NCBI GenBank assembly: GCA_013178305.1
Contig: JABLXB010000002.1
Coordinates: forward strand, 372,001-436,000
Reading direction: 5' to 3'
DNA: 64,000 bases
Origin: Bacillota bacterium
GTDB lineage: Bacteria > Bacillota > Sulfobacillia > JABLXB01
Positions 6,564-46,390 of this stretch are shown here, in pieces. How positions within the stretch are numbered: position 1 is the stretch's first letter; every line of letters starts with the position of its first letter. Made by a program: the position numbers and the translations under genes. A model generated the notes under the pieces. That model was not told the origin of the DNA. It searched no databases and worked only from the letters and a program-made list of their open reading frames with translations.

Positions 6564-6893
6564 GTGTACGGCTATGGTGACTACACGGGCTGGGACTACA
6601 TTCCGGGAGTAGCGCAGCAACCTGGGTTTCCCCAGTATCCCGGATATCCGGGCTATCCAGGGGTACCTCCGGCATACCCGGGTTTCCCGCCGACGTTCCC
6701 GGCGCCGTTCCCGGGAAACCTGCAGCAACGCGTTGTGAGGCTGGAGAGGGCTGTTGCGCTCATGGAAGCGGAGATCGACCGGCTGGCGCGCAGGGTTGCG
6801 GACCTCGATAGGAGGGTCGCGCGGCTCGAAGGCAGGCCTGGTGGTAGTGAACTCGGCCCTGGAGCCGGAGAGGCTGGCAAACCCGGAGGCTGA
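6564..6893 (+). CDS. Pro/Gly/Tyr-rich protein with C-terminal coiled coil
   Basis: A 109-residue protein. Residues 1-50 are made of PGY/PGV/PGF-type units (FPQYPGYPGYPG), like spore-coat or surface proteins; residues about 55-90 form a heptad-rich helix (VVRLERAVALMEAEIDRLA, then ADLDRRVARLEGR). No signal peptide. A GTG start was chosen because GGGAGGTG lies 6 nt upstream. It is followed by a strong hairpin terminator. A coat or spore-surface role is only a guess from composition. Confidence 0.65.
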   Translation: MYGYGDYTGWDYIPGVAQQPGFPQYPGYPGYPGVPPAYPGFPPTFPAPFPGNLQQRVVRLERAVALMEAEIDRLARRVADLDRRVARLEGRPGGSELGPGAGEAGKPGG

Positions 6894-8471: not shown

Positions 8472-8868
8472 TTAGTCCTCGATCTTCTGTATGTAGTCGA
8501 GGTTGCCCTCCGAGGGTTCGAATGGTCGTAGCGGAAGAGGCGGGAAGCGTTCAGCCACTCGAAGACTCGGTCGTACCGTGCGAGTAGCAGTCCCAACCTG
8601 ACGGGGTCACTTGACGCAAGTCCCCGCACGTCGGAGCCAGGCGCGGCGTCTGGGTGCGTACGCGTGCAGTACACGATGAGGGTGCCAGAAGCGTGGCGCA
8701 GTAGTCGGGTATCCTCGCGCGATCCTCGGGATAACGGAAGGCCGGAGAGATCTGGAGAGCAGGATGCGCCTCCGCCAGCTGGCGCACGAGAATTGCGTTG
8801 TCCGCGAAGTAGCAGCCCTCGATGATGATCACCAGTATCCTGACCGCCTTTCGTCGACCGCACCACCG
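8472..8868 (-). pseudogene. frameshifted small gene upstream of hgcA
   Basis: Coding-like sequence jumps between three minus frames: ILVIIIEGCYFADNAILV with RYPEDRARIPDYCAT, then GTLIVYCTRTHPDAAP and LLLARYDRVFEWLNASR, and finally EPSEGNLDYIQKIED followed by a stop. Each part looks protein-like and they are collinear, suggesting one gene of about 130 codons with two frameshifts. I do not recognise the family. Either a decayed gene or sequencing errors. Confidence 0.4.
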
Positions 8869-9324: not shown

Positions 9325-9332
9325 TGGTCATC

Positions 9333-9404
9333 TTATGGTGGCCCCAACGGGAATCGAACCCGTGTTACCGCCTTGAAAGAGCGGTGTCTTGACCTCTTGA
9401 CCAT
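9333..9404. repeat. attachment-site copy (distal end)
   Basis: 72 bp identical to 17599-17670, covering the CCA end through the D-arm of tRNA-Glu. The bases beyond (TTCCCCTG instead of GGGGCCAC) destroy the acceptor stem, so this copy cannot give a tRNA. It marks the far end of the integrated element. Confidence 0.92.
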
Positions 9405-9491
9405 TCCCCTGTTAAAACTGCGTTTCTGGCCCCATTCCCTCGCCAGGGTAACCGCTTTTCATTTTGAGCCTTATTTACTGCTCCTTCGCCG

Positions 9492-10505
9492 TCACTGGTC
9501 AGAATCCTGCTCAGGTTGGGAGGTTTTTGAAGGAGCGGCCTTCGTACGGATAACGCCTACCGGCGTACGACGGCCCTGTCTTTGTCTTCGCTTTTTCTCT
9601 CTCTGACGGCACCTTTCGGAGCAAAACTTCTCCCGAGGTGGCAGTACTAAGTTGCCGCAATCGGCTGCTGAACACCTGGTTACGTTGAGGTATCCCAATT
9701 CCTGAAAGAACCATTGTAGGAACGCCGCGAGGATAGCACCACTGGCTCCGAACACCCAAGTGTACAGCGGGAATCTTGGGTCATCCTCGCGGCTAAGCAT
9801 CGGAATGAGAACAAACACCGGCAGTACTCTCGACACACAATCCACAATCGCCTCCCAGGTGTCTCTGAGAAGCTGATCGTCATTCTGAGGTCCCATCCAG
9901 ATGGTTTCATACGCCGCTGTGCCCCCGCGTCCGGTCTTCTTGCGGAATATGGGCGGCCACGGCAGGTAGCGAACGTACGGCCAAGAGCCATCCCCGACAA
10001 GATAGACCGCACTGAGTTCTTCCTTGATGACCATTGCCTTTTCGAAGGGCCGATCCCCCGCGTTGTTCCTGCCCTGGCGGAAGAGGTCCCAGAGCGGCCC
10101 CACTTTGCCGTTCTTGACCCATTCGACCATCAGAGTTAACCCGCGAAACCAGTCAAGCCATTTCATGCATACTCCCCATGACTCGGAGACCGGCTTGCAC
10201 GGATTGACCCCGGGCATTGTCTCGTTCCGTCCCCACCCGAGGCATGGTCCGTGCGGCAGAAGATGACCGTATTTCCCATAGAAGTCCTCAATCTGTCTCC
10301 AATCGTTTTTCTCAAAGGCGAAGTATAGCTGTCGCACTGTTCTCCAGAAGCGAGGGTCGGTTTCGGTCGGATTGAACATGCCACGCAGGTTGTCTTCGAT
10401 GCACCGTATCCACCGTTCGCCCCTTTCGTCCTGCGTCAGGGCAACCTTGACCCAGGGAATGCTCGCATAAGCAGTCTCGGCGGCTATCGTCTCCAGTCTG
10501 TGCAT
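9492..10505 (-). CDS. unknown protein with C-terminal zinc-finger motif
   Basis: A 337-residue protein. The C-terminal region RCSAADCGNLVLPPREKFC followed by SERCRQREKKRRQRQGRR carries a C-x4-C...C-x3-C metal site and a basic tail, resembling CGNR-type zinc fingers and suggesting nucleic-acid binding. The rest has many Trp and aromatic residues and one hydrophobic stretch (VFGASGAILAAFLQWFFQ); no enzyme motif recognised. It is the only leftward gene at this end of the element, divergent from the XRE gene, with its own sigma-A promoter. Candidate accessory or defence gene, by position only. Confidence 0.75.
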   Translation of the reverse strand: MHRLETIAAETAYASIPWVKVALTQDERGERWIRCIEDNLRGMFNPTETDPRFWRTVRQLYFAFEKNDWRQIEDFYGKYGHLLPHGPCLGWGRNETMPGVNPCKPVSESWGVCMKWLDWFRGLTLMVEWVKNGKVGPLWDLFRQGRNNAGDRPFEKAMVIKEELSAVYLVGDGSWPYVRYLPWPPIFRKKTGRGGTAAYETIWMGPQNDDQLLRDTWEAIVDCVSRVLPVFVLIPMLSREDDPRFPLYTWVFGASGAILAAFLQWFFQELGYLNVTRCSAADCGNLVLPPREKFCSERCRQREKKRRQRQGRRTPVGVIRTKAAPSKTSQPEQDSDQ

Positions 10506-10535
10506 CTGTGTCCCCCCTAAGTCCCCCCTTCCTAT

Positions 10536-10565
10536 ATTATAGACACAGAATCCTGCTCAGGTCAA
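10536..10565 (-). promoter_or_regulatory. sigma-A promoter of the Zn-finger gene
   Basis: TTGACC and TATAAT are separated by 18 bp on the minus strand, about 30 bp before the ATG at 10505. The site lies between this gene and the divergent XRE regulator, a natural place for XRE control. Confidence 0.65.
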
Positions 10566-10583
10566 TCAGAAGGGGTGTGAAGC

Positions 10584-10799
10584 ATGGTTACGCAGGTCGC
10601 ATTGCTTCGGTTCAAGACGGGCGTAACTGCTCGTGAATTCGCCAAGGCTGTCGGAATCCCAGAGGTTACCATGTACCGCATTGAGCGGGGAAGGCAGTAC
10701 GTCCCTCCAAAATGGCGTCGTCCCCTGGCGGAGGCTCTAGGGGTCTCCGAGGAGGAAATCTGCGACCCCAAGACGGGCTGGCCCAGGTTGGTGGCTTAG
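10584..10799 (+). CDS. XRE-family HTH regulator
   Basis: A 71-residue protein almost entirely composed of a Cro/CI-type helix-turn-helix (VTAREFAKAVGIPEVTMYRI, then LAEALGVSEEEICDP). The ATG follows an AGAAGGGG site. It is divergent from the Zn-finger gene and precedes the replication genes of the element, as expected for a repressor of the element. Confidence 0.85.
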   Translation: MVTQVALLRFKTGVTAREFAKAVGIPEVTMYRIERGRQYVPPKWRRPLAEALGVSEEEICDPKTGWPRLVA

Positions 10800-10893
10800 C
10801 CCAACGGCAATGGAATAACCCTCTCGACGTGGCGACGGCCGAAGGGAGGGACAATCCCAATGCAGCGTTACCCGAAGGAGGCGATCATTTCGA

Positions 10894-11070
10894 TTGACCC
10901 CTGAAGCGAAGGCTCGACGGCGGGCGAACGCCAGGCGAGGAAAGAGCGAGCGGCGTCTTTTACGTGAAGCCCGAGCCGTCCTCCTCAAAGAAGCAGAAGC
11001 GAGGCGAGCGGAAGGCGTTATCGACGCCGTGATCTGGGGGGTGATTCGCAACCTGAGAGATGCAATCTGA
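10894..11070 (+). CDS. small basic protein (putative)
   Basis: A 58-codon frame starting TTG, very rich in Arg, Ala and Glu (EAKARRRANARRGKSERR), ending before a gap of about 130 bp. An AGGAGG site lies 12 nt upstream, and a 14-codon frame beginning at an ATG at 10860 ends over its start. The composition suggests a nucleic-acid-binding helix, but without homology it could be a chance frame. Confidence 0.4.
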   Translation: MTPEAKARRRANARRGKSERRLLREARAVLLKEAEARRAEGVIDAVIWGVIRNLRDAI

Positions 11071-11200
11071 CTTCGCTTGACACGTCCTCAACTGAGTCCC
11101 ACTAGTCCCACGCGGGTGCTAAGACAACCCGCATTTTTGTTCCCCAAAAAACAACCGGGCCGGGGTGCGAACCCGGCCCAATTCATTGGAGGCATAGCCT

Positions 11201-11569
11201 ATGTCAAAGGGTATTCCGATCAAAGCTCCCGTCAACGGTCTCTGGCGTGTTTGCGGGACCCTCTGCCCAGGGAACCCGCCAGTCTTCGTTCAGCGTATCA
11301 AGCCCCAGGACGTTCTGCGGATACGGGGAGCCGCAGGGGTTGACCTGGCTTACGACCCACCGCTACCGCCAAACACGATCCTCCGCCACGAAATCATGGG
11401 ACAGGATACCTACGAAATCCCGCTAGCCGTCCTGCTGAACCACTTGAAGGCCGAACGCCTGCAAGTCGGCCCCAAGCACCCCCGCCGGATTTACCTCGCC
11501 TACAAGTACTGGCGGAACGTCATGCGAGAATCGGCCCAACTGCCGCTCTTCGGCGGTGAGGCTGTATGA
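11201..11569 (+). CDS. unknown protein coupled to the primase-like gene
   Basis: A 122-residue protein with a TTGGAGG site upstream. Its stop overlaps the next gene's start (ATGA), so the two are translated together. No family recognised; the C-terminal end SAQLPLFGGEAV contains QLPLF, which fits the QLxLF pattern of a beta-clamp-binding peptide (inference). A replication accessory role is plausible from position. Confidence 0.7.
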   Translation: MSKGIPIKAPVNGLWRVCGTLCPGNPPVFVQRIKPQDVLRIRGAAGVDLAYDPPLPPNTILRHEIMGQDTYEIPLAVLLNHLKAERLQVGPKHPRRIYLAYKYWRNVMRESAQLPLFGGEAV

Positions 11570-13329
11570 GTCTTGCGGTCAGCGTACTCGAACCGGCCCG
11601 GGCAACCGTCCCGGGCCGCAGTACTTGGTGGTCCCCCGCCAGGGTCGCCATCCACGAAGGCCACTGGAAAACCGTCCACTACCCGAAGTATACCGCAGTG
11701 GTCAGGAAAGGTCAAACGCTGGCTGTTTCCCCGGTCGGGATTGACGGCATGGCTCACTTCGTGGCCTTCGACATAGATAGCGGCGATGAGGGAGACGTTC
11801 AGGCCGTCCTGAAGGCGTTACCTCAAGGGACGGTCCCCCTCGTGAGTCATTCCGGGAAGAAGGGGTGGCATGTCTGGCTGTTCCCCTCCGCTCCCATCCC
11901 TGTAAAGACCGCCCTAGCGTTCGGAAGGTGGGTCCTCGAAAGGTCTGCTGTCTCCTGCGAGGTGTTTCCCACGGGGAAGAACAGTCGCTGCCTCAAGTGG
12001 CCCGGGAGCCCCCATCCTGAGACGAAGAAGCCGGAGGTATTCGTCCCTATCGAGAACGTGGCCGGCACACCGGACACTGACGCCACCCTTCAGGCCCTGG
12101 CGGATGGGCTTTACAGAACCCCCGCCGACCTGTTCGAGCGAAGGCAGTCATGCTCACGGCAGGATAGGGGGTTCCCCGAAGGGGTCTCATATACCCATAT
12201 GGGGTATAATGATCCAATCGCTGAGAACAACACAAGAACAGCGACCGCAAAAGGGAGGAGCCTCGCCATGCTGCCTGAGCTGGCCTTCGGGCTTGCTGAA
12301 CTTGCAGGAAGGCGGGTGACGAAGATGGGCAAGCCCTTCCGGTGCATCCTCCCAGGCCACGAGGAACGCAAACCTTCGGCAGAGTTTTACGTGGGAGACA
12401 ACGGCACAGTCGTTTACCATGATTGGCACGCTTCAAAGCACGGCACGCCTGAGTTTCTAACCCTTGGGGAAATGTATCACGCTATTGCAACGGGAAGGAT
12501 AGCCAAACTGAGACCTGTCGATTCTGCAAGGTGGCTCGCTAGGCTCGCCCTACGCCTCGGCATACACAACGAGCAAACAAAACAAGTCCGCTCCTCACTT
12601 GATCGCCTATCTCAGATCTTACTCCAATCATCAGTATTATCTTCACCAGTTGGTTGTAAAACGAGAGGGGCAGATGTGTCCATGGCGAAAGGCGAAATAA
12701 TTTCGTCTTTCGTCCTCTTACCGCCACCAGCCCTGCCAGAGGAGAAGAACCGCGGCAAGGGTAATGAATTGACAAGAGTGTGGCAGGCGTTTTGCGATGA
12801 AGCGATGGTTTCGGCAATGAACGGATTCAACGAGGTGAAGCTGTCTAAGCGGTTCCTGGCTCGAATTGCTGATGTGCCGGACGACGTTGCTAACAGGGCG
12901 ATGAATCTCCTGTCCGTTCTCGGCGTTTTGGAGAAGGCCCCTGGCAGCGGAGGCGAACGCGGGGACAGGTTCGTGCTGGGTGACCCTTCCGCTCGGAAAT
13001 CATTTCCGTTCTTTTCCGAAGAGGTCCAAAGGCGTTGGGAGGCGTTGGGCAAACCTTCCTTGAGGCAGTTCAAGAAGACCCTCGTGGAGGAACGCCTGGG
13101 TCCGGAGATAGCCAACGCAGTCTTCAGACGGTCCCAAAAGGAGAACGAATTACCTTCGGCTGCAGAGAAGACGGTCCAAGTCACGGACGAGGCATCAGTC
13201 ATCCGGGACAATGGCTCCACAAAGCCCTACAATGCCCCAGGAGACGTTTTCTTGGGCGAAGAGTACCTGAGATATGGACAAGCGTCACAAGCCGTCTCCT
13301 GGGGCTTCCTAGAAGGTTCTGCCTGCTAG
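11566..13329 (+). CDS. primase-like replication protein of the element
   Basis: A 587-residue protein. Residues about 60-175 look like an archaeo-eukaryotic-type primase core: FVAFDID (acidic metal ligands), SHSGKKGWHVWLFP (conserved His region) and CEVFPTGKN...LKWPGSPHP. Around residues 240-310, FRCILPGHEERKPSAEFY and VYHDWHASKHG resemble a CHC2-like zinc module that presents template. The C-terminal third (SAMNGFNEVKLSKRFLARIA) may be a winged helix. It probably starts replication of the excised element; catalytic activity is inferred from motifs. Confidence 0.75.
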   Translation: MSLAVSVLEPARATVPGRSTWWSPARVAIHEGHWKTVHYPKYTAVVRKGQTLAVSPVGIDGMAHFVAFDIDSGDEGDVQAVLKALPQGTVPLVSHSGKKGWHVWLFPSAPIPVKTALAFGRWVLERSAVSCEVFPTGKNSRCLKWPGSPHPETKKPEVFVPIENVAGTPDTDATLQALADGLYRTPADLFERRQSCSRQDRGFPEGVSYTHMGYNDPIAENNTRTATAKGRSLAMLPELAFGLAELAGRRVTKMGKPFRCILPGHEERKPSAEFYVGDNGTVVYHDWHASKHGTPEFLTLGEMYHAIATGRIAKLRPVDSARWLARLALRLGIHNEQTKQVRSSLDRLSQILLQSSVLSSPVGCKTRGADVSMAKGEIISSFVLLPPPALPEEKNRGKGNELTRVWQAFCDEAMVSAMNGFNEVKLSKRFLARIADVPDDVANRAMNLLSVLGVLEKAPGSGGERGDRFVLGDPSARKSFPFFSEEVQRRWEALGKPSLRQFKKTLVEERLGPEIANAVFRRSQKENELPSAAEKTVQVTDEASVIRDNGSTKPYNAPGDVFLGEEYLRYGQASQAVSWGFLEGSAC

Positions 13330-13398
13330 AATGCGGTCAAAATGCGGTAGCATGTGCGTGCTCACGACAACATGTGAGCCAGAAAGGGGTGTCCTTTG

Positions 13399-13680
13399 GT
13401 GGGTAGAGCAGGGAGCACGTTCATTCAGTGGGACGATTACGAGGGGCATGTTTACCTCCAGACCACGAGCGGCAAACTCGTCGAAACCCTCACTGCCGTG
13501 GGGGTTGTGTGGGAAGCGAAGGACGATGCGGGAACCTACTCCTACAGGATACCCACTGCCTGGCTCAGGCTCAGGATACCCAGGGGGGGTATACTGAAAT
13601 TCGGGTGGTACCCCACGAAGAAGCAGAAGGGGGTGCTCGCTATCATGGAAGAGCGGCCCAAACTAGTCGTGGTCAAGTAA
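13399..13680 (+). CDS. unknown small protein of the element
   Basis: A 93-residue, beta-rich protein (GSTFIQWDDYEGHVYLQTT, then PRGGILKFGWYPTKKQKG). GTG start with GAAAGGGG upstream; the frame also opens at TTG one codon earlier. It ends 24 nt before the next likely start. No family recognised. Confidence 0.6.
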   Translation: MGRAGSTFIQWDDYEGHVYLQTTSGKLVETLTAVGVVWEAKDDAGTYSYRIPTAWLRLRIPRGGILKFGWYPTKKQKGVLAIMEERPKLVVVK

Positions 13681-13703
13681 GTTCCTCGGAGAAGTTCGCG
13701 TAC

Positions 13704-14045
13704 ATGATCGGGAAGCTGTACGAGGAGAGAAAGCGGGACAAAGAGGACAATTTGAGGCAGAACAGAGAGCCGAACCATCAAAATGATGCTTCGGGGAATA
13801 CCTCCGAAGCCATTGCCGAAGAATACAAAGTCGGCAAGGCCACTGTTGAACGTGCTGCCAGCACTCATCAGTTTGCCGGAGCCGTGATCAAGAAAGAACT
13901 GGCTCGCCTGATGTATGTGTCTAAGCCGGGATTAGAGACTGCAGTAAGCCTGCTAAAGTATGCTCCAGATTTCGTGGTCTTCTTTGAAGAGAGTAAGCCA
14001 GGGGGCTTCTTTACCAGATACCTAAACGCAGTGGACCGACCTTGA
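13704..14045 (+). CDS. ParB/KorB-like DNA-binding protein
   Basis: About 113 residues. A basic, Asn/Gln-rich stretch (RQNREPNHQNDASGNTSEAI) leads into the helix-turn-helix AEEYKVGKATVERAAS, the arrangement seen in ParB-like proteins of plasmids, phages and integrative elements. ATG at 13704 was chosen; the frame is open upstream but overlaps the previous gene out of frame. The C-terminal part differs from usual relatives, so partner specificity is unknown. Confidence 0.6.
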   Translation: MIGKLYEERKRDKEDNLRQNREPNHQNDASGNTSEAIAEEYKVGKATVERAASTHQFAGAVIKKELARLMYVSKPGLETAVSLLKYAPDFVVFFEESKPGGFFTRYLNAVDRP

Positions 14046-14095
14046 GTTGTCGATAGCGAGAATGCCATGCCTGCGATAACCGGGAGGGATGTTCG

Positions 14096-14674
14096 GTGTC
14101 CTATTTCTTGGTTGCCGGCCAACCTGTGTTCCTCTCAACCAGTCGGTACGGAGCTCTTCTCACCGAAGCTTTATCGGATGAGACTTCCAAGAATCGCGTC
14201 CGTGCTTCTATCGCAGGAACTGCAGAGCACCGCCGATCTGTGCTTCGCATGCAAAACCTCCTCAAATCGAAATACAGTACAGACCCAGTGCGTTTTTACA
14301 GTGAATGGGTGGATTTCGACTTTGCGGATGCTGAGGCTCGTGATAACGTCTCTGACCTACTGTACGACTACTGCGACTTACACGGATGCGGGCGGCTGAT
14401 AGACTTCCGGGATTCTACCCAACGGTTACTAGACGCTTACGAATGCGAAAACCTTTCGTATCCGTTCGGAATGGTCTTCGGCTTGGAGTTCGACGTTGGG
14501 CTGAGACCGCTATGGCTGCGAACGTTCCTTAGGAGCAAGAATCTAAGAGTCATTATTGCAACCCAGCTGGTCAGTCGTCTCAAAGGCACTCTCAGTGACT
14601 TTACCATGTACTCTCTCTGCACAACCATTCGTTTCAACAGCAACGGTGTTGTTCTCCAGCCGTCTAACCTGTAA
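14096..14674 (+). CDS. unknown protein, possible cargo gene
   Basis: A 192-residue protein with GTG start behind GGGAGG. Composition is less GC-biased than the chromosome. No domain recognised: FYSEWVDFDFADAEARDNV, then LLYDYCDLHGCGRLIDFRD, are notable acidic/aromatic segments. It is last in the rightward gene series of the element, a position often used for cargo such as defence genes. Confidence 0.6.
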   Translation: MSYFLVAGQPVFLSTSRYGALLTEALSDETSKNRVRASIAGTAEHRRSVLRMQNLLKSKYSTDPVRFYSEWVDFDFADAEARDNVSDLLYDYCDLHGCGRLIDFRDSTQRLLDAYECENLSYPFGMVFGLEFDVGLRPLWLRTFLRSKNLRVIIATQLVSRLKGTLSDFTMYSLCTTIRFNSNGVVLQPSNL

Positions 14675-15391
14675 TCGCGGTTGTATTTGACAAATTCGTG
14701 TTGTTAACCGAGGTTTCATTGTCTCGGTACTTGAGCTTGTGCATCGACGGGAAGCCAGTCCACGGTCGCTAGCAGAAGCATGGTGGTTTTCTCACCTCTT
14801 CCGAAAGGCTACTGCAGTCAAAGAATTCCACTGGGCCACAAGTAAAGGTGAGCAGGCTGCAGTCGATCACGTCGCAGGTGTCCGTAAAACGGAGACAAAC
14901 GGGACCGATAAAACGGACGAAAAGCGATTCTCGTTGCTAACAAGGCGAAAACAACGGCGTCCAGCGGATGTCCGCGTGGATGGCGGGCGTACGTCCGATA
15001 TTGAGAACAGACCGAAAACACTAGTCCTGAGAACAGGGAAGAACAGGAAACCCGCCTGAACGGTTCGCCTCGAAACCGGATAGCGGCGGCCGCACAAAGA
15101 TACCGGCATATTTCACAGAAGACAGCCTCAAATGTAATTGCGGACATTAGTAAAAACGGCAGACTTGCCGAAATTACTATCCTGTAGAATGTCCCAGGAC
15201 GGACGTTTCGAGGGCGGGTAAGGGTGTAGGTATCCCCCGGCCCCTGGAGGGCTTCCATCAGTATAGGGTTAAGGAAATGTTTCCTGAAGCCATAAAGGGC
15301 CAAAAAAGAACGGAAATGATTTCCCTTCTTTATGCTGAGAAGATCGGCTTAGTACGGGAGGCGGTCAAGTCTTTGGCACGCTGGCCCCTGG
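14675..15391. other. non-coding stretch of the element, possible origin or control region
   Basis: No reading frame here looks protein-coding. The sequence after 14880 is purine-rich with recurring AAAACGGA/GGACGAAAA-type words and an ACCGAG...CTCGGT hairpin near 14708. Such content could be an origin or transfer region, but I find no clear iteron set. Confidence 0.35.
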
Positions 15392-15489
15392 GTTTCAATC
15401 CACGCCCCCGCACGGGGGGCGACCGGATATCGTGCTCGAACTCAGCCGCCGCAATTGGTTTCAATCCACGCCCCCCTGCGGGGGCGAAC
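15392..15489. CRISPR. two-repeat CRISPR-like array, type I-C-like repeats, no cas genes
   Basis: Two 32-nt units (15392-15423 and 15458-15489) both begin GTTTCAATCCACGCCCCC and close with the complementary GGGGGCG, flanking one 34-nt spacer. The repeat length, the palindrome and the GTTTCAATCCACGC edge match type I-C repeats (read on the minus strand, ending GTGGATTGAAAC). The two hairpins keep a 7-bp stem but differ in the loop, and the unit at 15458 is degenerate at its outer end. No cas gene lies in the window. Confidence 0.6.
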
Positions 15490-15513
15490 CCTGTGGTAAT
15501 GTTGCCACAGGGT
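15488..15513. terminator. hairpin abutting the CRISPR-like repeat
   Basis: ACCCTGTGG / CCACAGGGT form a perfect 9-bp stem around an 8-nt loop directly after the second repeat. There is no T-tract, so it may be a structural RNA element rather than a terminator. Confidence 0.4.
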
Positions 15514-15873
15514 GAAGCGGGCAAGACGTGCGATGTTGAGCACCTGGACAAGGGGCAAACCACTATGCCCCGGGGACGTAAAATCGCGGCAGCGTTGCTC
15601 CTTGAGACCGTAGGTAGGTCTCGCGTGAGCTGCCGCGAATTGAAGTGACTTCTTGTCTACGCCCGATTCTCACTATATGCGATTGATAGGCTGAGCAGGG
15701 GGGGGACGTGCGTTCTTGACAGAAAGTTCCCCTGAGACCGTGGGCAGGGTTTGCTTTCGTAAAATTCTCTTTTTCGCCCAACTCGTTCCCGCAAACCCAT
15801 AACGAGGCAAGAGAGGAGGCGGATCGCCTGCTCGCCGACGCTGCCCGCCTCCGTGACCGCCACAGTCTTTGAT
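15514..15873. other. no supported gene
   Basis: Intergenic sequence of the element. A few words recur (CTTGAGACCGT near 15601, CTGAGACCGTGGGCAGG near 15733) but I see no coding frame and no complete hairpin terminator. Confidence 0.35.
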
Positions 15874-16176
15874 TCAGGCGTCTTCAACCTTGATAGCAGG
15901 GAACGCCTCCTCGAACGGGACTTCCTTTTCGGGCAGCTGCTCGTAAAGGAGCACTGCGTCGTCCAGGGAGAGGGGTTCCAGGCGGTCCCTCTCCCCTTCC
16001 CAGCAAGTGCGATACTGGGCGAAGTAGTTCCCACTCGGGGTGCGGTAGAGGAACGTGTTCCTGCCGTGCCTCTCCCAGTTGTGCCCGTCCCAGTAGGCGT
16101 TTGAAGCAATGAGGGTCGCCGTCTCCGTGGAATACCTCTTCCGACCGATTACCGCAGTCATCTCCGCAGGTTTCAT
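15874..16176 (-). CDS. unknown small protein of the element
   Basis: A 100-residue protein starting at an ATG with CGGAGG upstream. IGRKRYSTETATLIASNAYW followed by NTFLYRTPSGNYFAQY suggests a compact alpha/beta fold of a kind seen in other Firmicute mobile elements, but I cannot name a family. The frame continues upstream without coding character. Confidence 0.6.
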   Translation of the reverse strand: MKPAEMTAVIGRKRYSTETATLIASNAYWDGHNWERHGRNTFLYRTPSGNYFAQYRTCWEGERDRLEPLSLDDAVLLYEQLPEKEVPFEEAFPAIKVEDA

Positions 16177-16237
16177 GATGCATGCCTCCGGGGACTGTGC
16201 CCCAATCTGGCGGTCCGGTCCATGCCGGCCGCCGTTC

Positions 16238-16438
16238 TCACCGCATTTTCGACAGGCACCCCACCGATACCAACGCCTCCCGCAGGTGGTAGTGAGCGTC
16301 ATCAAGGTGCTTTGCCGCAACGTTCTTGACCGGATAGTCCTCGGGCCGGAGCCCGTTCAAGAGACCTATCGCCTGCACGATGAGCCGCAGGGCCTCGGGG
16401 TCTTGCGACCTGCGTTCTGCGTTCGCCGCTTCACACAT
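16238..16438 (-). CDS. small helical protein coupled to the integrase
   Basis: A 66-residue, mostly helical protein whose ATG overlaps the integrase stop (ATGTGA) and has GGTGAGGAG just upstream. The position after int and the size would suit an excisionase or regulator, but no helix-turn-helix is evident. Confidence 0.55.
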   Translation of the reverse strand: MCEAANAERRSQDPEALRLIVQAIGLLNGLRPEDYPVKNVAAKHLDDAHYHLREALVSVGCLSKMR

Positions 16439-17387
16439 CGCTCCTCACCTTCCTGACGCGGTTTCTCCTGGGAAGCAGCGTGTTGAGCGGGGAAGCGATG
16501 GCGTGCTGCTCGCGGAGGTCCTGCTGGGTAAGTGCGACGTAGCGTTTCGTCATGGTCATGCTTGCGTGCCCGAGGGTCTTTTGCAGTGAGAAGGCATTGC
16601 CCCCATTTCGCAAGAACATCAAGGCGAACGAGTGCCGGAGGTCGTAGGGGCGGACCTTCACTCCGGCGGCCTTGCTGTAAAGCTGGAGCCTCCTGTCCCA
16701 GGCGTTGTGAGTCATGAACCGCCCATCCTCGGTGCAGAACACCGGTATCCTTTCGTCCCAGGACGGGTGTCTCGCCGCAATGAGCTTCTTCACCGCCTCA
16801 GCAGTCACAAGGGAGATCGGCAGGGTCCTGGACACCCTGGTCTTCGCCGCCTCCCTGGGAACGGTCGCCTCCAATCCGCGGAGGTTGAAGTGGTGGATTT
16901 TGAGGCTGCAAGCCTCCTTTGGGCGGATTCCAGTGTCCAGGGCGAGCAGGAGAAGGGCGTAGTCACGCAGGCCGGTGAACGTTGCCCTGTCGGGAACGGA
17001 AAGGAGCCGTCTCAGTGCGTCCTCGCCGGCGGCCCTCGGCGTTTCGCCCTCCCTCCTACGCTTGACCCCGTGAATCGGGTCGGCGGGAAGATAGCCTTCC
17101 GAGACGCACCACGAGAAGAATGTCTTCAGCACCTGGAGCCTTTTGTTGTAAGTCGATGGGGCCAGGGAAGAGCTTTTGGCGAGGTATTCGAGCACGGCCC
17201 TGCGGAAGCACTCGTAGTCCTCGGTCCCGGCAATCCCCGCGGCCTTCAGGAATAGCCCAGTGTGGTAGCGTAGGTCCTCAAGGGTCCTCTCCGCCAGCCC
17301 CTGCGAACGCTTGAACAGGAGAAAGCCCTCCGCCACCTCTTCCCATGCCAGTGAGCGTTTCGGCGAGACCCTCACCAAACGGCCCAT
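16431..17387 (-). CDS. int: tyrosine recombinase / site-specific integrase
   Basis: A 318-residue phage-type integrase. The N-terminal SAM-like core-binding domain covers about residues 15-110; the catalytic domain shows Arg in TGIRPKEA, H-x-x-R in YDLRHSFALMF, His in LGHASMTMT and the Tyr nucleophile in KRYVALT. It lies about 210 bp from the tRNA-Glu attachment site and points away from it. It catalyses insertion at and excision from the 72-bp repeat. Confidence 0.93.
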   Translation of the reverse strand: MGRLVRVSPKRSLAWEEVAEGFLLFKRSQGLAERTLEDLRYHTGLFLKAAGIAGTEDYECFRRAVLEYLAKSSSLAPSTYNKRLQVLKTFFSWCVSEGYLPADPIHGVKRRREGETPRAAGEDALRRLLSVPDRATFTGLRDYALLLLALDTGIRPKEACSLKIHHFNLRGLEATVPREAAKTRVSRTLPISLVTAEAVKKLIAARHPSWDERIPVFCTEDGRFMTHNAWDRRLQLYSKAAGVKVRPYDLRHSFALMFLRNGGNAFSLQKTLGHASMTMTKRYVALTQQDLREQHAIASPLNTLLPRRNRVRKVRSDV

Positions 17388-17598
17388 AAACAGAACCCCC
17401 CTCGCGGCCCTGGCGAAGGGGGCGGACGAACGATTTCCAGTTGGGGCAACGGGGAGGGTTTTGTGTTACCGCTTTTGCGGTTTTCGATAGGACGGCGTAC
17501 TCAAAACCCCATTCCAAGGACACCGCTCTATCGCTTTTCGGGAGGATTTCCAGGGGCTTTCCGGCAGAGAGGTTACTGCAAAATGCCTGCTACAAATA

Positions 17599-17670
17599 TT
17601 ATGGTGGCCCCAACGGGAATCGAACCCGTGTTACCGCCTTGAAAGAGCGGTGTCTTGACCTCTTGACCAT
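17599..17670. repeat. attachment-site copy inside functional tRNA-Glu
   Basis: 72 bp identical to 9333-9404. Here the following bases (GGGGCC) complete the acceptor stem, so the element restored the tRNA when it inserted. Confidence 0.92.
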
Positions 17671-45579: not shown

Positions 45580-45804
45580 GAAAACCCTCCGCTCCTACAC
45601 GAAGCAGAGGGCTTAACCTGCCATTGCTGGCCGATCCACCCCCTATCCGGCGTAGGGGACGACCTCGATTGCCAGGCAACCGGTCTCCTGACTAAGGTTC
45701 ATCGCTCTGGCGCCGCCTTCCCAGGTATTGCCCAGTGGCCTTATGGCGCCTTGCTTCCCCTCACAGTGGCGGGACCGTGTCAGACTTGCACTGACAGCTG
45801 CCCA
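45580..45804 (-). promoter_or_regulatory. cobalamin riboswitch, 5'-truncated, with terminator
   Basis: On the minus strand AGTGCAAGTCTGACACGG, then TCCCGCCACTGTGA and later AGTCAGGAGACC are the conserved B12-box segments. The region upstream of the first box is replaced by coding sequence of a MerR fragment, so P1 and part of P2 are missing. CCCTCTGCTTC / GGAGCGGAGGG followed by TTTTC (45580-45611) is its expression-platform terminator. It would have controlled the solute-binding gene. Confidence 0.75.
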
Positions 45805-46390
45805 GGTTGCACCGGATCCTGGTCTTGAAGGACCTGGGATTGACGTTGGATCAGATCGCGACGCTGCTCCGCCAGGAGCTGTCGGCCGAACAGATCCGGG
45901 GCATACTCCAGCTGAAGAAAGCAGAGGCTGAGCGCACTTGTCTGAGGAGCGGGCACGGCTGGCAAGGGTCGAGGCGATGCTGGCGCAAATCGAAAAAGAA
46001 GGGAAGATGCCCATGTACGAAGTAGTGCTGAAAAAGATTCCCGCCCAAAATGTGGCAAGCGTCCGTAGGATTTTGCCCAGAGCAGCTGCACTGTTGGCAG
46101 CATGTTTCAAAGGCATGCTATGTTCATGTCGCTTTATCTCTCGGATTACCTCGAGGAATAACCTCGTCTGTCGAGCCGCTTTCTCTTTTTCCAATTCGTC
46201 TGCGCAGGCAAAAACTGAACGTAGCCTTTAAGTCAGGGGATCGCTTTCAACCTGTGCATTTTGAAAGCATTCCACTATCCGTTCCGGAAAGCGGACATCG
46301 AGTTAGATGATTCCCGTTCACCTGTTCCATCAAAGGGAGCTGCTGAAACAATACTCCGTTACTTGATGAGACATGACCGATGCAGCTGAC
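45798..46390 (+). pseudogene. MerR-family regulator, truncated and frameshifted
   Basis: LHRILVLKDLGLTLDQIATL then LRQELSAEQIRGILQLKKAE matches the MerR dimerisation region; after a one-base shift the text continues SEERARLARVEAMLAQIEKE and MYEVVLKKIPAQNVASVR, the start of a GyrI-like effector domain; a further frame gives FHYPFRKADIELDDS. The DNA-binding N-terminus is missing, replaced by the riboswitch remnant. Confidence 0.6.

Follow-up and report, generated by a model that had tools for sequence, protein, structure and literature searches.

A candidate one-spacer type I-C CRISPR mini-array with a phage-derived spacer in a small satellite-like integrative element of a type I-G Bacillota host

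Mini-arrays have been described in viruses, where they use host Cas proteins against related viruses and carry repeats identical to those of the host (PMC6858448, PMC11656645). Those of SPV1 and SPV2 of Sulfolobales and of phages and prophages hold one or two spacers between cellular-type repeats, come without cas genes, and have a spacer aimed at another mobile element (PMC6858448, PMC11656645). The unit reported here, at positions 15392-15489 of the window (the whole stretch of 64,000 nucleotides analysed), is alike in each of these features, being a one-spacer unit on a mobile element without cas genes. In contrast to the viral examples, it is carried by an integrative element that is satellite-like and not a virus; the CRISPR type to which it corresponds is missing from its present host, and no leader is seen; and the target of its spacer is a gene found across many phages, not a close relation of the element that carries it. 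Racr and other solitary repeat units (PMC10651486) likewise place an I-C repeat on a cas-less mobile element, but the present unit has two repeats and a phage-derived spacer and is not a solitary repeat. Relative to the cellular I-C arrays of four genomes compared here (G036, G012, G001, and G261), it shares the 32-nt repeats, the 7-bp stem, the TGGATTGAAAC end, and the 34-nt spacer, whereas it has a single spacer, no leader, and no cas operon, and is located in a mobile element. With moderate confidence, we read it as a genuine one-spacer I-C mini-array, carried as cargo of the element, that would supply a guide against phage ibrB to I-C proteins acting in trans.

The unit comprises a repeat (15392-15423), a spacer (15424-15457), and a second repeat (15458-15489) of 32, 34, and 32 nt, exactly where the earlier note had placed two 32-nt I-C-like repeats around a 34-nt spacer. 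Because I-C repeats in standard orientation end in GTGGATTGAAAC, it is the minus strand that has the crRNA sense. In that sense, the 5’ repeat (15458..15489, minus strand) is GTTCGCCCCCGCAGGGGGGCGTGGATTGAAAC, composed of GTT, the 7-bp stem, a 4-nt loop, and TGGATTGAAAC; the spacer (15424..15457, minus strand) reads CAATTGCGGCGGCTGAGTTCGAGCACGATATCCG; and the 3’ repeat (15392..15423, minus strand) is GTCGCCCCCCGTGCGGGGGCGTGGATTGAAAC, composed of GT, the 7-bp stem, a 5-nt loop, and TGGATTGAAAC. A direct-repeat search matched the two copies over 28 nt, at 89% identity and with a spacing of 66 nt. The full 32-mers agree at 26 of 32 positions, and they differ only in the loop and in a few bases at the start. 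Each repeat folds into the 7-bp stem, under a loop of 4 nt in the 5’ repeat and 5 nt in the 3’ repeat; both the stem (CGCCCCC/GGGGGCG) and the 11-nt 3’ part, which is the usual I-C 5’ handle, are the same in the two copies. The unit thus has the repeats of about 32 nt, the stem-loop, the (T)GGATTGAAAC 3’ end, and the spacer length (about 34-36 nt) of I-C arrays; the CRISPR-DR matches returned by an Rfam scan were all sub-threshold. The earlier note had also taken the kept stem and differing loops as a sign of selection on structure. The observation is correct, but the deduction does not follow from it, the two stems being identical and free of compensatory change. A stronger structural argument is provided by the repeats of other genomes, in which the stems covary (G012 and G261).

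The 3’ repeat is identical at 30 of 32 positions to array repeats of G036 and G025, from which it differs in the loop, and at 30 of 32 to those of G012, where the difference is one compensatory stem pair. All three genomes belong to the same class as the host, and cas3-cas5-cas8c is present in G036. The 5’ repeat has the architecture of a 120-copy array in G261, whose stem differs by a compensated pair and which adjoins a complete I-C operon (cas3, cas5, cas8c, cas7, cas4, and cas1-like genes, as assigned from a reading of the translations); it is also identical at 31 of 32 positions to a solitary repeat in G040. These closest I-C repeats belong to genomes of other genera. Within the host family, G001 possesses an I-C system with a different repeat, GTCGCCTCCCGCGCGGAGGTGTGGATTGAAAC, and is included among the 14 of 101 genomes searched that gave Cas8c matches (13 over the cut-off). 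Since near-identical repeats form arrays in other genomes, and since the core pattern occurs nowhere else in the host genome, both repeats are natural I-C types and not products of chance.

These comparisons also bear on the very improbable reading that the unit is no CRISPR at all but two palindromes to which a protein binds, a repeat that arose by chance, or a join made in assembly. A 26-nt inverted-repeat region does adjoin the unit (a 12-nt inverted repeat next to the 5’ repeat at 15488..15513, minus strand, from the repeat search), and the CRISPR-repeat joins in one viral contig, L064, resemble misassembly. Such readings must nevertheless contend with a 32-nt match to I-C array repeats combined with a 34-nt phage-derived spacer that is in frame with a conserved protein, and the absence of the same repeats elsewhere in the genome leaves no array to mis-join.

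Related units were seen in other sequences. I-C two-repeat units occur in the interiors of IMG/VR contigs (e.g., L322, L331, and L337), and the kind of unit is therefore known, though uncommon. The contig L064 (IMG/VR 3300037424_000408) features two identical solitary I-C repeats, at 6788-6819 and 8662-8693, that lie 1.87 kb apart and each abruptly cut off a phage gene; it looks like phage sequence joined via CRISPR-array reads in assembly, with real insertions as the alternative. The solitary I-C-type repeat of G040 (L048:5611-5642) is chromosomal and intergenic, and adjoins panB/panC-like genes.

The carrier is an integrated mobile element of 8.3 kb (9330..17670) bounded by a 75-bp duplication (74/75 identical) of part of tRNA-Glu, with attL at 9330-9404 and attR at 17596-17670. 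It encodes an HTH regulator (10584..10799, plus strand), the conserved element protein c122 (11201..11569, plus), an AEP-type primase (AEP-TOTE; 11566..13329, plus), the small conserved protein c100 (15874..16173, minus), and a tyrosine integrase (16431..17387, minus). The integrase is upstream of the mini-array in the same orientation, and c100, which is 68-75% identical to its counterparts in sister elements, is the last gene before it. Neither cas genes nor structural genes were recognized among the main ORFs in a Pfam and PHROGs scan. The tRNA-Glu att duplication and the lack of a cas gene in that scan agree with the earlier description of a mobile element free of cas genes. At 8.3 kb, with att sites that duplicate part of a tRNA gene and with an integrase, a primase, and an HTH regulator but no detected structural genes, the element resembles PICI-like satellites (PMC13376191) in size, att sites, and gene content; these satellites are delimited by 7-20 kb, att repeats, an integrase, a replication gene, and no structural genes, and the element shows the same set.

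Sister elements of the same class were identified in G011 (L063/L081), G101 (L080), and G053 (L079); they share some or all of the integrase, primase, HTH regulator, c122, and c100 at 42-76% identity, and two of them adjoin tRNA-Leu. None of the three carries an I-C repeat, which makes the mini-array an accessory found in a single element copy rather than a conserved part of the family. Three other genomes of the phylum that encode c100 (G154, G360, and G474) showed neither a clear sister element nor an I-C repeat, and no relatives of the primase were found in IMG/VR.

In the host assembly (G000; 97.7% complete), CRISPR is of type I-G only, with one cas1 and 67 repeats of GTATCCACGGCTGAAACGCCGTGGCTCAGTTGCAGG that are unrelated to the mini-array. 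The type I-G-like locus (L045:11031-15900, G000:C9) comprises cas3, csx17-like, csb1, csb2, and cas4-cas1 genes along with the 67 repeats. The earlier note had proposed looking for an I-C cas locus with the same repeat elsewhere in the genome; the search of G000 found neither such a locus nor a Cas8c, and no second site with an I-C repeat turned up within two mismatches of the core. The assembly accordingly lacks the combination of cas3-cas5-cas8c-cas7 and matching repeats that makes up a functional I-C system, and the unit does not share the host-identical repeats of viral mini-arrays (PMC11656645), those of the host being type I-G. With type I-G as the only system of the host, and with both Cas8c and further repeats of this kind missing, the unit is probably silent at present, although an I-C system may have been located on a plasmid lost from the assembly. 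The I-G spacers of the host gave only chance-level matches to the element, to a phage contig of G091 described below, and to the other loci fetched.

The mini-array is intergenic, in the same orientation as int-c66-c100 and downstream of these genes. No sigma-70-like promoter was found near it, and no I-C-like leader adjoins the first repeat, where the upstream sequence, compared by eye, is unlike the leaders of G012 or G261. Downstream, a hairpin with a T-run (15157..15170, minus strand) is terminator-like at the consensus level only and is not above chance; shuffled sequence gives 2.1 terminator-like sites on average in this region. It is at this point that the main rival explanation has to be weighed: the unit might be an inert relic. 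On this view, a piece of an earlier host's I-C array, with two repeats and a single spacer, would have been captured by recombination and would now drift without function, and its spacer would be an ordinary past memory of a phage and no asset of the element. This explanation accounts equally well for the missing leader, promoter, and effector, and is further favored by the different natural types of the two repeats and by sister elements that lack the unit. Drift, however, would be expected to erode some of the structure, whereas each repeat retains an intact stem and an intact 11-nt handle and the spacer length is canonical; we regard a relic as possible but doubtful. Between c100 and the mini-array, at 15576-15646 of the window, lies a large imperfect inverted repeat with 18-nt arms that encloses a second inverted repeat, GAGACC...GGTCTC; it may belong to a region for replication or control.

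The gene from which the spacer came was revealed by reading it as a peptide, where nucleotide searches had given nothing significant. On the plus strand, read in the frame (T)CG GAT ATC GTG CTC GAA CTC AGC CGC CGC AAT TG(G), the spacer gives the peptide SDIVLELSRRNW, which is a block conserved in IbrB/ParB-like proteins of phages. The back-translated DIVLELSRRNW pattern, with an information content that we estimate at about 43 bits and a chance expectation well below one, matched seven IMG/VR contigs exactly, all in frame and all in one protein family, whereas a control frame of comparable specificity gave no IMG/VR matches. The family is phage IbrB/ParB-like (PHROG 2159, E 4e-72) and has members in 165 phage records and 648 plasmid records. 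Viral loci were selected for encoding the peptide or close variants, and their conservation is biased upwards as a result; over the 133 distinct loci obtained, the best DNA match to the spacer is 30/34, and at the 75 loci with at least 24/34, 455 of 623 mismatches fall at codon position 3. This wobble pattern points to an ibrB-like gene as the source. These comparisons indicate that the spacer derives from a mobile-element gene, assigned at the level of the gene family to IbrB-like phage genes.

At the nucleotide level, no perfect protospacer was found. Searches of phages and plasmids gave only matches with E of 1 or worse, IMG/VR contained no exact 20-mer of the spacer, and 101 related genomes searched at up to three mismatches returned only the spacer itself. 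The PAMs implied by the 133 ibrB homologs, among which the source phage is not included, are GAC (58), CTC (49), GTC (20), TTC (4), and GCC (2), and the best match (30/34) is flanked by a non-canonical GTC; a characterized I-C system uses TTC/TTT (PMC10865793). A temperate tailed-phage contig from the same class (G091:C54) encodes ibrA (DUF3440/PAPS reductase) and ibrB together with an integrase and tail genes, and at the motif its sequence is identical to that of IMG/VR L087. With a spacer match of only 21/34, this contig is ruled out as the target itself. Self-targeting within the window or element was likewise rejected, the best match (22/34) being no better than those of shuffled spacers, and a CreTA-like or promoter-regulating role is unsupported, the rest of the element being free of 8-nt seed matches.

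We therefore return to the reading of the unit as a one-spacer guide. In an I-C-positive cell, a minus-strand transcript of the unit, either its own or read through from int-c66-c100, would be cut by Cas5d in both repeats, and the single crRNA would load into I-C Cascade. The loaded complex would destroy infecting phages with a matching ibrB, and the element and its cell would thereby be protected from a competing phage. The earlier note had envisaged that host Cas proteins are turned either against competing elements or against sister elements. The phage-gene spacer fits competing elements, but the Cas proteins of this host, type I-G only, do not suit the unit; exclusion of sisters finds no counterpart, ibrB being absent from the sister elements and the window. 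A more specific proposal, which we put forward as rather unlikely, is guide-only mobile immunity: the element would carry a guide for an effector missing in its present host, directed against a coding block that is highly conserved in a widespread phage gene, and would gain protection on entering an I-C-positive host.

Transcribed repeats could instead act as a Racr-like RNA anti-CRISPR, a decoy that sequesters I-C Cas proteins and shields the element in new hosts. I-C repeats borne by cas-less mobile elements are known Racr sources (RacrIC1; PMC10651486), but Racrs are solitary repeats, and a full repeat-spacer-repeat with a phage-derived spacer would yield a functional crRNA; as both repeats also match ordinary array repeats and not altered mimics, we consider a decoy improbable. 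If the unit functions as a guide, a small non-viral element moves CRISPR guides apart from Cas proteins, with a spacer that is anti-phage rather than anti-sister. An array of one type in a host of another also offers a testable example of how orphan units persist from host to host.

Finally, two further features of the window were observed. Two palindromic sites, GGAAATGTTTCC and GGAAATGATTTCC, are located at 15272-15325 and are possible operators of the element’s regulator. Elsewhere, a cobalamin riboswitch is present at 45658-45852 on the minus strand.
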